35,622 nt of DNA from a virus, in IMG/VR virus record IMGVR_UViG_3300025151_000132, positions 1-35,622 of that record; one strand, written 5' to 3'. A model generated the notes under the pieces. The model did not search any database. It saw nothing but the letters and a program-made list of their open reading frames with translations, and was not told where the DNA came from. This document shows, piece by piece, positions 17,500 through 30,166 of this stretch. Positions within the stretch are counted from its first letter, which is position 1; each line of letters starts with the position of its first letter. The position numbers and the translations under genes were made by a program.

Positions 17500-18663
17500 C
17501 TACCTGTGTTCTTGGATCATCTTTGATTCAGCCTCTGCGATTCTCGCCTCCCCGATCTTGACATACTCCTCCTCTCGCTCTATTCCTATAAAGTCACGCC
17601 CTGTATTCACACAAGCTACACCAGTTGTAAAACTTCCTGCAAACGGGTCAAGTACTACACCCCCCGTAGGTGTCTTGGTTAGTGTACATAGGTATTCCAT
17701 TAGCTTGAGGGGCTTAACTGTCGGATGTCCGTTGCCTTCTCCTCGTTCTTTCTTACTCGCTTTAGCACAATAAAAGAATCTTGAAGGCTCTCCAAGCATC
17801 TCTCCTGCTTCCTCGTCTAGTATGATGTTAGCTGGAAATCTCTTGCTTTCTCCCTCTCCGATTCTTGCCCCTTCAATGTTTAGTCCTGATACACCATGCT
17901 TTAATGCGTTATTAGCATACGTACCATCATTTGGCTTAACTGCTACTAGTATAGGCTCATAAGCTGGCTTAAGTCCGTGTGACTTCCAACCTTCCCATAG
18001 TTGAGCTTCTGGTGTTGCTGCTTTGGTGATGTCTCTATCTACAAATTTTGTACTTCCGTCTGTGTTCCACCCGCTCATTGCATTCTCTTGCTTACCCACA
18101 ACCTCCCTTTCTGCCTCCTCTATATAAGTATCCCACTCATCGCCAAAAGCAAATAACTCTTTAAGCTTTAAGTAGTGTTCCTTCCTTGGAATTGAATTAT
18201 TGCTTTGTGATAGTGCAAAGAAGTGAAATGCACCTTCCTTCAATCCAAGAATCTCATCTAGTTGATTATTTGTATAATCTCCTTTGTTCGCACGCAAGAA
18301 CTTTGTAAACTCTAATTGTTTATCAAAACCCCTACCCTGCACTTTATCCAACTGCTTACTTATATCAGTAGCCTTCGGAAACCCACTGCCATATAGCCAC
18401 ATAATACAATCTTTCAATTCAAACCCTGCATCCTCTACATTAACCGCCATACGGTGCTGTGTTCTACTACCAGCAAAGATCAAAGCTGTTCCACCTGGCT
18501 TCAGTACCCTCAAGCACTCTTGCCATAGTTCTACGCTAGGAACATCATAATCCCATTTCTTACCCATAAAGCTAAGTCCATAAGGAGGATCAGTTATCAC
18601 TGTGTCTATGCTATTGTCGTCTAACTTCTTTAACTCATTAATAGAATCTCCGTGTATTATCAT
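17500..18663 (-). CDS. DNA methyltransferase (N6-adenine/N4-cytosine, beta class)
   Basis: This 387-residue protein starts MIIHGDSINELKKLDDNSID and carries TDPPYGL at residues 24-30 (catalytic motif IV). This is followed by LWQECLRVLKPGGTALIFAG and, near the C-terminus, HPTVKPLKLMEYL and DPFAGSFTTG (S-adenosylmethionine-binding motif I). The order DPPY then target-recognition insert then FxGxG is the beta-class arrangement. The middle section (about residues 100-260) is the likely recognition domain. No restriction enzyme partner is next to it, so it is probably an orphan phage methylase that protects DNA or regulates packaging. Its start codon follows an A-rich leader (ATAATAAAATAAA). Confidence 0.9.
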   Translation of the reverse strand: MIIHGDSINELKKLDDNSIDTVITDPPYGLSFMGKKWDYDVPSVELWQECLRVLKPGGTALIFAGSRTQHRMAVNVEDAGFELKDCIMWLYGSGFPKATDISKQLDKVQGRGFDKQLEFTKFLRANKGDYTNNQLDEILGLKEGAFHFFALSQSNNSIPRKEHYLKLKELFAFGDEWDTYIEEAEREVVGKQENAMSGWNTDGSTKFVDRDITKAATPEAQLWEGWKSHGLKPAYEPILVAVKPNDGTYANNALKHGVSGLNIEGARIGEGESKRFPANIILDEEAGEMLGEPSRFFYCAKASKKERGEGNGHPTVKPLKLMEYLCTLTKTPTGGVVLDPFAGSFTTGVACVNTGRDFIGIEREEEYVKIGEARIAEAESKMIQEHR

Positions 18664-24357: not shown

Positions 24358-24445
24358 GTGTTTGTTTTATTAACTAGTAGTAATTAATATTTATTAACTA
24401 TTACTAACCAACAATAAGCATATATGTATATAGTAAGCCTAATTT

Positions 24446-24480
24446 CCTGAGGGAGAAGCTCTTACCTGAGTGTTAGCTCT
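24446..24480. repeat. Two tandem CCTGAG-N4/5-AGCTCT units
   Basis: Plus strand 24446-24462 and 24465-24480 both read CCTGAG, a 4-5 nt spacer, then AGCTCT, with a period of 19 bases. The period is close to two helical turns, so two protein copies could bind on the same face. In the leftward RNA these are tandem AGAGCT-CTCAGG units that do not fold on themselves. Confidence 0.55.
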
Positions 24481-24549
24481 TGGTTTGAGTTAAAAAAGAA
24501 AGGGAAAAAATTAATATTACAAATACACCGTACTATACAAAGCTAAGTA

Positions 24550-24571
24550 AGCCTTTTAGTAAGGTTTTTTT
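24550..24571 (+). terminator. Weak rightward terminator-like hairpin
   Basis: AGCCTT, loop TTAGT and AAGGTT form a 6-bp stem with one wobble, followed by a run of Ts. On the plus strand it resembles a short intrinsic terminator. No plus-strand gene precedes it, so it may only block antisense transcription into the control region. Confidence 0.35.
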
Positions 24572-24653
24572 ATAGTTCTAGTTTTCAATGTACACACTAC
24601 TCACGTGTTGTAGTTCAGGAGAAACATTTCCGTCGGTCGAAGACTTCCGTCGT

Positions 24654-24707
24654 GCTTCTTAACTTGGCTCTAGGTTTCCCTAGCGTCAGTGACTGAGGCT
24701 TAAGTGC
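24654..24707 (-). ncRNA. Three-way-junction element in the leftward leader
   Basis: In leftward RNA an outer helix (GC-A-CTTAA with TTAAG-AA-GC) encloses TCAG-TCA-CTGA and CTAGG-GAAA-CCTAG. The second hairpin has a GNRA (GAAA) tetraloop only in the leftward RNA. It starts about 40 nt after the expected transcription start. It is GC-richer than the surrounding sequence. It resembles no Rfam family I recall; the position recalls cis-acting antitermination RNAs such as HK022 put, an analogy only. Confidence 0.5.
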
Positions 24708-24755
24708 TGCCTTTATTCAGTTTAACTTGAGTACTTAGATAAACTAAGTAGATTG

Positions 24756-24784
24756 AGTATAGAGTAGTTTATTGACTATATCAA
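24756..24784 (-). promoter_or_regulatory. Main leftward promoter (PL-like)
   Basis: On the minus strand TTGATA (plus 24779-24784) and TATACT (plus 24756-24761) are exactly 17 bp apart. It points at the structured leader and the long minus-strand operon. An operator-like ATATCA-A-TGATGT (plus 24778-24790) overlaps the -35 box. It is the best candidate for the start of the long leftward transcript. Confidence 0.65.
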
Positions 24785-24815
24785 TGATGTGACTATAGCC
24801 ATGGTTAATATTATG

Positions 24816-24843
24816 TTGCGTACTAATATATAGTTGATATAAT
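24816..24843 (+). promoter_or_regulatory. Rightward promoter before the 78-residue gene
   Basis: TTGCGT (24816-24821), a 16-bp spacer and TATAAT (24838-24843). TGATAT overlaps the -10 as in the other early promoters; the left half of the operator (ATATAT) is imperfect. The next gene starts at 24870 behind an AGGAGG ribosome binding site. Confidence 0.65.
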
Positions 24844-24869
24844 TATTAGCATATACAGGAGGGTCTTTA

Positions 24870-25189: not shown

Positions 25190-25218
25190 TTGCATGGTGA
25201 TAAAGCACGTGCTAAATT
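25190..25218 (+). promoter_or_regulatory. Early promoter with inverted-repeat operator
   Basis: TTGCAT (25190-25195), 17-bp spacer, TAAATT (25213-25218). The spacer and -10 contain AAAGCA-CG-TGCTAA, whose core AGCACGTGCT is a perfect palindrome. This is the same position and spacing as ATATCA-NN-TGATAT in the sister promoters, but with different arms. Confidence 0.72.
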
Positions 25219-25426: not shown

Positions 25427-25436
25427 TAAGATCGAG

Positions 25437-25469
25437 AACCTCCTTCTATAACTAGAAGGGGGTTTTTTT
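25437..25469 (+). terminator. Intrinsic terminator after the 59-residue gene
   Basis: AACCTCCTTCT (25437-25447), loop ATAACT and AGAAGGGGGTT (25454-25464) pair over 11 bp with one U-G, followed by a T-run to 25469. It separates this cassette from the cyclase promoter. Confidence 0.9.
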
Positions 25470-25488: not shown

Positions 25489-25517
25489 TTGCATAGTGAT
25501 ATATAACATGATAAATT
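25489..25517 (+). promoter_or_regulatory. Promoter of the cyclase-like gene
   Basis: TTGCAT (25489-25494), 17-bp spacer, TAAATT (25512-25517), with the operator ATATAA-CA-TGATAA overlapping the -10. It lies about 25 bp before the cyclase-like ATG. Confidence 0.75.
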
Positions 25518-25541: not shown

Positions 25542-26219
25542 ATGGAAAGTAGAAAGCTTGTTAAGCATAGGTTAGAAGGAGAAAAGAAGAACATTATTAT
25601 GGGACTTGCAGATATAGGAGGATTTACTAACTTTATGCATGTTAGTAGAATGGCTACCAATCACAGTCAGGCGATTATCAACGACCTTATAGATTGCATT
25701 ATATCAACGATTAAGCCTCCGTTTAGAATAAATAAGATTGAGGGTGACGCAGTATTCTTCTACGCCTTAGAGAGCGAAATAACGCCAGCTGACGTAAGAA
25801 AAATGTCAGATAACTTACTAGAGATATTTACTAACTTTAAAACAGCACTAATAAGACAAAGTATGTCTAACTTCTGTGAGTGTCAGGCATGCAGTAACGC
25901 ACACACGCTTAGTATAAAGACGGTTATACACTCAGGTACTGCTTACTTTTACAACATTGCTAATCAGTTTGAGGAGATAGGAGGTTTAGATGTAATTATT
26001 GCACACAGACTACTAAAGAATAATGTACCTTATAGAGATTACTTGTTGATTACTGATGAGGCTATGAAATGGTTTGTATTTGATGAGAATGTAAAGTTCT
26101 CTGATCATATGGAGATGGAGCCTACTGTAGGAGCTATAGATTGTGAGGTGCATGTTATAGAGACTTCAGAGGAGGAAAAGGAGTTGATAGAAGCAAAGAA
26201 GATTAGGGATTGTGAATAG
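25542..26219 (+). CDS. Class III nucleotidyl cyclase-like protein (DUF2652 type)
   Basis: This 225-residue protein has the core of class III adenylyl/guanylyl cyclases: GLADIGGFTNFM with the first metal Asp at 24, NKIEGDAVFFYAL with the second at 69, and LSIKTVIHSG. GLDVIIAHRLLKN then follows at the place of the usual VNxAxR motif, where Arg156 is kept and the Asn is replaced by Ile. CECQACS (Cys 112, 114, 117) and the general layout match, from memory, DUF2652, a cyclase-like family best known from Bacteroidota. The protein has no membrane or sensor domain. It has its own promoter. It may make a cyclic nucleotide signal or interfere with one; activity is unproven. Confidence 0.82.
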   Translation: MESRKLVKHRLEGEKKNIIMGLADIGGFTNFMHVSRMATNHSQAIINDLIDCIISTIKPPFRINKIEGDAVFFYALESEITPADVRKMSDNLLEIFTNFKTALIRQSMSNFCECQACSNAHTLSIKTVIHSGTAYFYNIANQFEEIGGLDVIIAHRLLKNNVPYRDYLLITDEAMKWFVFDENVKFSDHMEMEPTVGAIDCEVHVIETSEEEKELIEAKKIRDCE

Positions 26220-26228
26220 ACAAGAGGG

Positions 26229-26257
26229 TTGCATTGTGTTATATCATGTGATATACT
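26229..26257 (+). promoter_or_regulatory. Promoter of the zinc-binding / ERF operon
   Basis: TTGCAT (26229-26234), 17-bp spacer, TATACT (26252-26257). The perfect inverted repeat ATATCA-TG-TGATAT (26241-26254) overlaps the -10; this is the reference copy of the shared operator. Confidence 0.8.
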
Positions 26258-26633: not shown

Positions 26634-27167
26634 ATGATTGATAAATTAATAAAGGTTCAGCAGGAGCTTAAGGCTCCTAAAGGACAAAGTAATGACTTCG
26701 GCGGTTACAAGTACAGAAGCTGTGAAGATATCCTAGAGGCAGTAAAGCCTCTCCTTATAGAACAAGGTTTGTTCATGGTAATAAGCGATGACATTATATC
26801 TAACGAGCAGCGTGTATATGTAAGAGCTACTGTAAGCATTACAGACGGTAACGAAAAGATAGAGGTTACTGGATTTGCTAGAGAATCTTTAGACAAGAAG
26901 GGTATGGACGCTAGTCAGATTACGGGATCTGCATCTAGCTACGCAAGAAAGTACGCCCTTAATGGTATGTTCCTTATAGATGACACTAAGGATGCTGATA
27001 CTAATGAATATGTATCTCAAACAACACCAAAAAAGGTAGAACAAGAGATGCCGTGTCCCAAGTGTGGTACAGAGATGGCGATAAGGGATGGTCAGTACGG
27101 TCAATTCTGGGGATGTCCTAAGTATAAAGATTGTGGTCAAAGACCAATAAATATAAGTGAAGCATGA
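26634..27167 (+). CDS. ERF-family single-strand annealing protein fused to a zinc ribbon
   Basis: The 177-residue protein opens MIDKLIKVQQELKAPKGQSN and then DFGGYKYRSCEDILEAVKPL, the hallmark ERF start, followed by RVYVRATVSITDG and GSASSYARKYALNGMFLIDD. This is a complete ERF core of the phage annealing kind, used with recombination and replication restart. Residues of about 140-173 add a topoisomerase-type zinc ribbon (CPKCGTEMAIRDG, FWGCPKYKDCGQ), an unusual addition that probably contacts DNA. It ends with TGA, after which the same frame stays open for 27 more codons. Confidence 0.88.
   Translation: MIDKLIKVQQELKAPKGQSNDFGGYKYRSCEDILEAVKPLLIEQGLFMVISDDIISNEQRVYVRATVSITDGNEKIEVTGFARESLDKKGMDASQITGSASSYARKYALNGMFLIDDTKDADTNEYVSQTTPKKVEQEMPCPKCGTEMAIRDGQYGQFWGCPKYKDCGQRPINISEA
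27147..27165 (+). repeat. Direct repeat copy 1 at the ERF 3' end
   Basis: The 19-nt sequence ATAAATATAAGTGAAGCAT occurs here within the last codons of the ERF gene, and again exactly 101 bases downstream at 27248-27266. Both copies are preceded by GATTGT a short way upstream. The pair encloses an 82-bp segment that may be an inserted or duplicated piece. Confidence 0.85.
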
Positions 27168-27611: not shown

Positions 27612-27788
27612 ATGAATGCAAGAGAAATTATTACAAAACTATTAGAGTCAGGTATGAATCTAACTCAAATATCTAGAGAGCTAGATGTACCTAACTGTAC
27701 TGTTTCAAGGTGGTATAACAATCATTATAAACCAGTTAAGCTTTATAAGAAGATGTTAGATGAGCTATATGAGAAAAATAAGAAATAG
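27612..27788 (+). CDS. Small helix-turn-helix DNA-binding protein, 58 residues
   Basis: ATG at 27612 opens MNAREIITKLLESGMNLTQI, then SRELDVPNCTVSRWYNNHYK and a basic helical tail ending YEKNKK. The segment MNLTQISRELDVPNCTVSRW is a classic HTH: Gly before the first helix, Ile-Ser-Arg-Glu-Leu, a short turn, then the recognition helix with TVSRW. It is as small as Cro-type repressors. It lies just upstream of the 27791 promoter that carries the shared operator, so it is the best candidate to control that family. The leader AATAAATTACA fits the genome pattern. Confidence 0.75.
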   Translation: MNAREIITKLLESGMNLTQISRELDVPNCTVSRWYNNHYKPVKLYKKMLDELYEKNKK

Positions 27789-27790
27789 GG

Positions 27791-27819
27791 TTGTAATTTA
27801 CTGTATCATGTGATATAAT
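27791..27819 (+). promoter_or_regulatory. Promoter of the coiled-coil / lysozyme-like operon
   Basis: TTGTAA (27791-27796), 17-bp spacer, TATAAT (27814-27819). The operator GTATCA-TG-TGATAT (27803-27816) overlaps the -10. It starts 2 bp after the stop of the HTH gene. Confidence 0.78.
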
Positions 27820-30138: not shown

Positions 30139-30166
30139 ATTATATATCATATGAAATAATTGACAA
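30139..30166 (-). promoter_or_regulatory. Promoter of the leftward small-protein operon
   Basis: On the minus strand TTGTCA (plus 30161-30166), 16-bp spacer, TATAAT (plus 30139-30144). ATTTCA-TA-TGATAT lies next to the -10 and matches the operator seen in the rightward promoters, shifted by about 2 bp. It suggests that this operon belongs to the same regulon. Confidence 0.72.

Follow-up and report, generated by a model that had tools for sequence, protein, structure and literature searches.

Does a tailed phage carry its own nucleotidyl cyclase, and what would it use the enzyme for? The question is raised by an ORF of the viral record IMGVR_UViG_3300025151_000132, whose positions 1-35,622 (35.6 kb) make up the stretch of DNA analysed here, called the window below. 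The first-pass annotation had read the product of this ORF as a class III cyclase-like protein of the DUF2652 type with intact metal-site residues, carried by a phage, and our analysis supports that reading.

Profile searches showed that the window belongs to a tailed phage, with the hallmark genes present. Genes were recognised for both terminase subunits and the major head protein, together with endolysin-type proteins and one ERF annealing and one NinB-like protein. Judging by the SU10-like portal and adaptor, the phage is short-tailed. The structural and packaging genes occupy the minus strand. The plus strand has a block of small genes, ERF among them, and the cyclase ORF (25542-26219, +) sits near the start of this block (Table 1). 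The ORF has a GC content of 0.37, and both its GC content and its codon usage resemble those of the other genes of the phage. Because phage genes flank it on both sides and its promoter motif is a shared one, the ORF is unlikely to have arisen by misassembly or to be a stray gene of the host. The gene is apparently intact, and the contig may be incomplete.

Table 1. Coordinates and supporting evidence for features of the window discussed in the text
Feature	Position	Strand	Evidence
Terminase large subunit (phage hallmark)	18832..20322	-	phrog_38 E 3e-94
Terminator-like hairpin between upstream small ORF and cyclase gene	25434..25467	+	15-bp stem and T run; fold z-score -4.0
Promoter-like site, TTGCAT, 17 nt, extended -10 TGaTAAATT; overlaps operator-like half-repeat	25489..25517	+	25-nt pattern
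DUF2652 / class III nucleotidyl cyclase-like protein, 225 aa	25542..26219	+	PF10851 E 3.2e-29; pLDDT 92.7; Foldseek CyaC E 9.6e-11; hhalign P 95.2, E 2.5e-8
D24 codon, putative first metal-binding Asp (LADIGGFT)	25611..25613	+	Invariant in 72 aligned sequences; aligned to FxDxxGFT Asp of class III cyclases
Codons K65-I-E-G-D69, base-contacting Lys position and putative second metal Asp	25734..25748	+	GD invariant (72 sequences); K65 on class III Lys, D69 on GD Asp (hhalign); K65/E145 covary, charge-swapped
Codons C112-E-C114-Q-A-C117-S, candidate metal-binding CxCxxC, clade-specific	25875..25895	+	Conservation in 71 sequences
Codons E145-I-G-G-L-D-V-I152-I-A-H-R156: base-contacting acidic position, Ile at Asn site, putative transition-state Arg	25974..26009	+	Aligned to class III VNxASR
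Promoter-like site of next (ERF) operon, TTGCAT-17-TGaTATACT, ATATCAtgTGATAT inverted repeat	26229..26257	+	Same motif, exact match
ERF ssDNA-annealing protein, early/recombination-region marker	26634..27167	+	PF04404 E 5.7e-39; phrog_155 E 4e-47
Small HTH protein, 58 aa, candidate (early) regulator	27612..27788	+	PF13384 E 7.5e-6; phrog_6831 transcriptional regulator E 3e-4

That the encoded protein belongs to DUF2652 and has the fold of a class III cyclase is close to certain. In the Pfam search, PF10851 (DUF2652) was matched over its full length (1-118 of 118 profile positions) with 101.8 bits against a cut-off of 22.1. The ORF, D24, D69 and CECQACS (112-118) were found where the first-pass annotation had placed them, and the protein is a single domain, in agreement with the earlier statement that it has no receptor domain. 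A scan of bacterial genomes recovered 69 relatives in Pseudomonadota, Myxococcota, Ignavibacteriota, Actinomycetota, Bacteroidota and other groups. The best relative comes from a Bacilli MAG (~39% identity), and identity to any relative found is at most about 40%. In the tree the phage protein has the longest end branch of all (2.27 changes per column), and its exact placement is unsure. The protein retains all invariant columns of the 72 aligned sequences, among which K126, H130, K159 and N160 are specific to the family, and departs at no near-invariant catalytic column. Since all these columns are retained despite the longest end branch, the active site is probably under selection.

Sequence searches of solved structures returned chance-level matches only, and the PF00211 model gave no match to the phage protein. 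The AlphaFold2 model (43 sequences, pTM 0.87) is predicted with high confidence to have the class III catalytic fold. Its 50 best PDB matches in Foldseek are class III cyclases (E about 1e-10), the top one being CyaC with a bound ATP analogue, and the target-normalised TM-score lies mostly between 0.65 and 0.74 for isolated catalytic domains. Moreover, hhalign aligned DUF2652 with 23 class III cyclase domains drawn from the genomes of bacterial relatives (Table 1). In this alignment D24 and D69 fall on the metal Asp columns, K65 on the base-contacting Lys, I152 on the Asn and R156 on the Arg. A class III cyclase-like nature of DUF2652 had been proposed in 2016, independently of the present analysis (PMC4886424).

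The position of R156 is occupied by Arg in 62 of the 71 sequences and by Lys in nine. The base-contacting pair is Lys/Asp in ATP-using class III enzymes; here the putative pair is K65/E145, a conservative variant which covaries across the family. E145 lies seven residues ahead of the Asn column; judging from the motif and from what is established for the class, this is the site of the base-contacting Asp in adenylyl cyclases, and the alignment is gapped close by. At positions 65/145, K/E is found in 18 sequences, that of the phage among them, E/K in 29 and G/E in 20, and a like-charged pair (K/K or E/E) was never seen; as the sequences are related, the counts do not represent independent events. 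Taken at the sequence level, the pair appears functional. The K,E combination has been read as an ATP/GTP group and E,K as a preference for GTP, both as predictions (PMC4886424), and a purine, ATP or GTP, is the most likely substrate base of the phage protein.

The transition-state Asn of class III cyclases is not found in the protein. The Ile reported in its place by the first-pass annotation is real (I152), and Ile occupies this position in 68 of the 71 aligned sequences. It is thus by the alignment a family trait and no phage-specific loss, and we rejected the idea that it marks a dead enzyme, since Ile is the DUF2652 norm. The same replacement has been published for mycobacterial DUF2652 members, and some established cyclases also lack the Asn (PMC4886424).

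Regarding the cysteine motif, CECQACS had been associated with DUF2652 as such. The motif is present, but it does not define the family, as CxCxxC is missing from all 24 Bacteroidota members in the set, and we rejected it as a DUF2652 signature because it is limited to one branch. C112 and C117 are found in 47 of the 71 sequences and C114 in 43, and H41 is co-conserved with CxCxxC in 43 of the 47; together CxCxxC and H41 mark the non-Bacteroidota branch. The motif follows the long second helix and precedes the next strand.

Upstream of the cyclase gene, a sigma-70-like promoter site having an extended -10 lies between the terminator-like hairpin and the gene itself, and the same motif precedes the ERF operon. 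Of the earlier claim that the gene has its own regulated promoter, a promoter-like site of its own is supported. The -35, the -10 and an operator-like sequence are common to the two promoter-like sites, and a palindromic ATCATGTGAT element overlaps the spacer and the -10. The 25-nt pattern has two exact matches and one match with two mismatches (25190) where 0.02 are expected in shuffles, and a close motif variant lies at 27791 (chance expectation 0.12 for the second pattern); both patterns were built after viewing the sites, which makes the chance figures optimistic. A generic promoter scan of the region showed no excess over shuffles, and the stretch from the cyclase gene to ERF contained no predicted terminator. 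Because its promoter-like site shares the -35, -10 and operator-like sequence with the ERF operon, the cyclase gene is likely expressed early, judging from motifs and gene order alone.

The ATCATGTGAT-type operator-like element is seen in the promoter-like sites at 25190, 25489, 26229 and 27791 (+) and at 30166 (-). This distribution suggests that one phage regulator may control several plus-strand units and one minus-strand unit. The gene of the small HTH protein lies directly upstream of the site at 27791.

No second viral DUF2652 protein was recovered from 50,697 phage records (tblastn with three DUF2652 proteins) or from pattern scans of 2.9 million viral contigs (queried with the phage protein and with broad and clade-specific DUF2652 alignments); the scans rely on short conserved peptides, which distant members could escape, and the collections may omit records very near the window. 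The DUF2652 HMM also had no match over 80 ERF-bearing viral loci and four TerL relatives. Cyclases of the PF00211 type were found in ten phage records, including Pelagibacter phage HTVC008M and Methylophilales phage Melnitz, and BFVD holds further phage cyclase-like models. An adenylate cyclase has also been described alongside curli genes, among the auxiliary genes of uncultivated pelagiphages (PMC9599517). The first-pass remark that phage cyclases are not commonly described therefore needs qualifying: a cyclase in a phage is not new, and what appears new is DUF2652 in a phage.

We also inquired into possible signalling partners. No cNMP-binding or TIR family is present among the Pfam matches listed for the window proteins (best 25 of 28 families). 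Among 93 scanned neighbours of bacterial DUF2652 genes there was no recurrent neighbour pointing to a pathway and no recognisable defence neighbourhood; cNMP-binding families are absent from the most frequent families of these neighbours, with one CRP-type gene seen. On a Rhodobacteraceae plasmid a Crp/Fnr-type cNMP-binding regulator (L004:4740-5498) adjoins DUF2652, a possible receptor pairing.

The explanation we prefer, to which as a whole we give about an even chance, is that the phage makes a soluble homodimeric mononucleotide cyclase, expressed early and used as a host-signalling tool. The gene product, a small DUF2652 protein, would be soluble, act as a nucleotidyl cyclase of the class III type and, by analogy with class III cyclases, form a head-to-tail homodimer. 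Two metal ions would sit at D24 and D69, the base would be contacted by K65 and E145 of the partner chain, and R156, perhaps with the family-invariant K159 and N160, would help to hold the transition state and the triphosphate, the presumed reaction being NTP to 3',5'-cyclic NMP. Transcription would begin early, from the promoter which shares its operator-like sequence with the recombination operon; regulation of this early type would fit host take-over or counter-defence. No receptor was recognised in the contig, so the targets of the product would have to be host proteins, and the cyclic nucleotide would shift host regulation in favour of the phage through a host-supplied receptor. Weighing against this explanation are the family-wide Ile at the site of the transition-state Asn, the bacterial neighbourhoods with their lack of a pathway hint, and the fact that the papers searched contained no assay of a DUF2652 protein.

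The replacement of the transition-state-stabilising Asn by Ile could instead mean that this cyclase-like protein turns over slowly or not at all and serves to sequester a bound nucleotide or cyclic nucleotide, a decoy as the first-pass annotation had also suggested, and sponges of the Tad/Acb type are a known phage strategy (PMC12043709). However, the Ile is shared by nearly the whole family, the two metal Asps, the Arg and the putative base-contacting pair are all in place, and a pure binder would have little reason to retain the metal Asps over so long a branch. We favour an enzyme over a decoy because the complete set of invariant residues is retained; a pure decoy became the less likely reading, and sequestration in general we regard as rather unlikely. 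An active enzyme might still make something other than a 3',5'-cyclic mononucleotide (e.g. a 2',3' product or an oligonucleotide), with a metal-bound Cys3His element in a structural or regulatory role. The family-specific invariants and the co-conservation of C112/C114/C117/H41 speak for this, as does the fact that no product measurement was found in the papers searched. The best PDB matches, however, are mononucleotide cyclases and not GGDEF enzymes, and we hold such a product to be improbable.

Phages often keep anti-host genes in regions such as the one occupied by the cyclase, whose gene lies among small plus-strand genes adjoining the recombination operon and has a promoter motif in common with that operon. 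The protein could accordingly serve counter-defence, by making a cyclic mononucleotide (or consuming NTP) that competes at a host receptor, e.g. of Pycsar, or signals to it wrongly. A single domain without a receptor would suit this role, and the lack of DUF2652 in any other searched phage is expected of a sporadic anti-defence gene. On the other hand, direct evidence of any defence target is lacking, bacterial DUF2652 genes have no recognisable defence neighbourhood, and Pycsar receptors are cUMP-specific (PMC11224242), whereas the K/E pair hints at a purine. We consider counter-defence possible though unlikely, and its narrower version, in which the cyclic nucleotide out-competes or mis-triggers host immunity, so that the phage would counter defence by synthesis of a signal and not by its destruction or sequestration, doubtful. 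The superfamily is the same as that of PycC, and the Cys motif, a candidate metal-binding site, is reminiscent of the zinc finger in clade D PycC (PMC11224242), which might suggest that the phage carries a Pycsar-like module for defence or superinfection exclusion. This version of the first-pass reading lost ground, as no Pycsar receptor or effector was recognised beside the gene, PADLOC defence models had no match in the window, no integrase or lysogeny gene was recognised there, and the Cys motif does not lie in the C-terminal ribbon. We consider it highly improbable.

Among known systems, bacterial DUF2652 proteins (PF10851, PMC4886424) are alike in the full-length domain, both metal Asps, the Ile in place of Asn and the Arg; the K/E pair is that of the mycobacterial/proteobacterial group, and both are single soluble domains. 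Unlike them, the phage copy resides in a tailed phage, on a very long branch and at low identity. With class III cyclases of PF00211, e.g. CyaC of Spirulina platensis, the protein shares the predicted fold and the placement of the metal Asps, the base-contacting Lys and the transition-state Arg, but it differs in Ile for Asn, Lys/Glu for Lys/Asp, the DUF2652-specific K159-N160 and CxCxxC. The PF00211-type cyclases of HTVC008M, Melnitz and the pelagiphage curli cluster (PMC9599517) are likewise of class III type in phages and possibly used for host signalling, but they represent a different family; the phages HTVC008M and Melnitz are about 141-147 kb, and the copies of pelagiphage podoviruses accompany curli genes. 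PycC has the superfamily and the metal-Asp chemistry in common with the phage protein, and one PycC clade needs its zinc site for activity; the phage protein differs in having no PADLOC match, no recognised receptor gene and its Cys motif elsewhere.

A compact and probably active phage member would offer a clean test of the DUF2652 product. DUF2652 would also be a second cyclase family among the few known in phages, pointing to cyclic nucleotides as something that phages make as well as degrade.

Several minor observations concern the rest of the window. About 500 nt without a long ORF (24358-24869) lie between divergent minus- and plus-strand genes, with no Rfam match at the gathering threshold, and no RNA families or tRNAs were detected in the window. 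One small protein has a weak match to the restriction-alleviation protein Lar (PF14354, E 0.0017). A scan of viral contigs with the portal protein found nothing. The fragment of a sister phage, L074 (TerL 77% identical), stops before the position of the cyclase. In the window a gene for an N6/N4 DNA methyltransferase (17500-18663, -) stands between terminase and portal; as the portal directly follows the terminase in L074, this gene appears to have been gained or lost.
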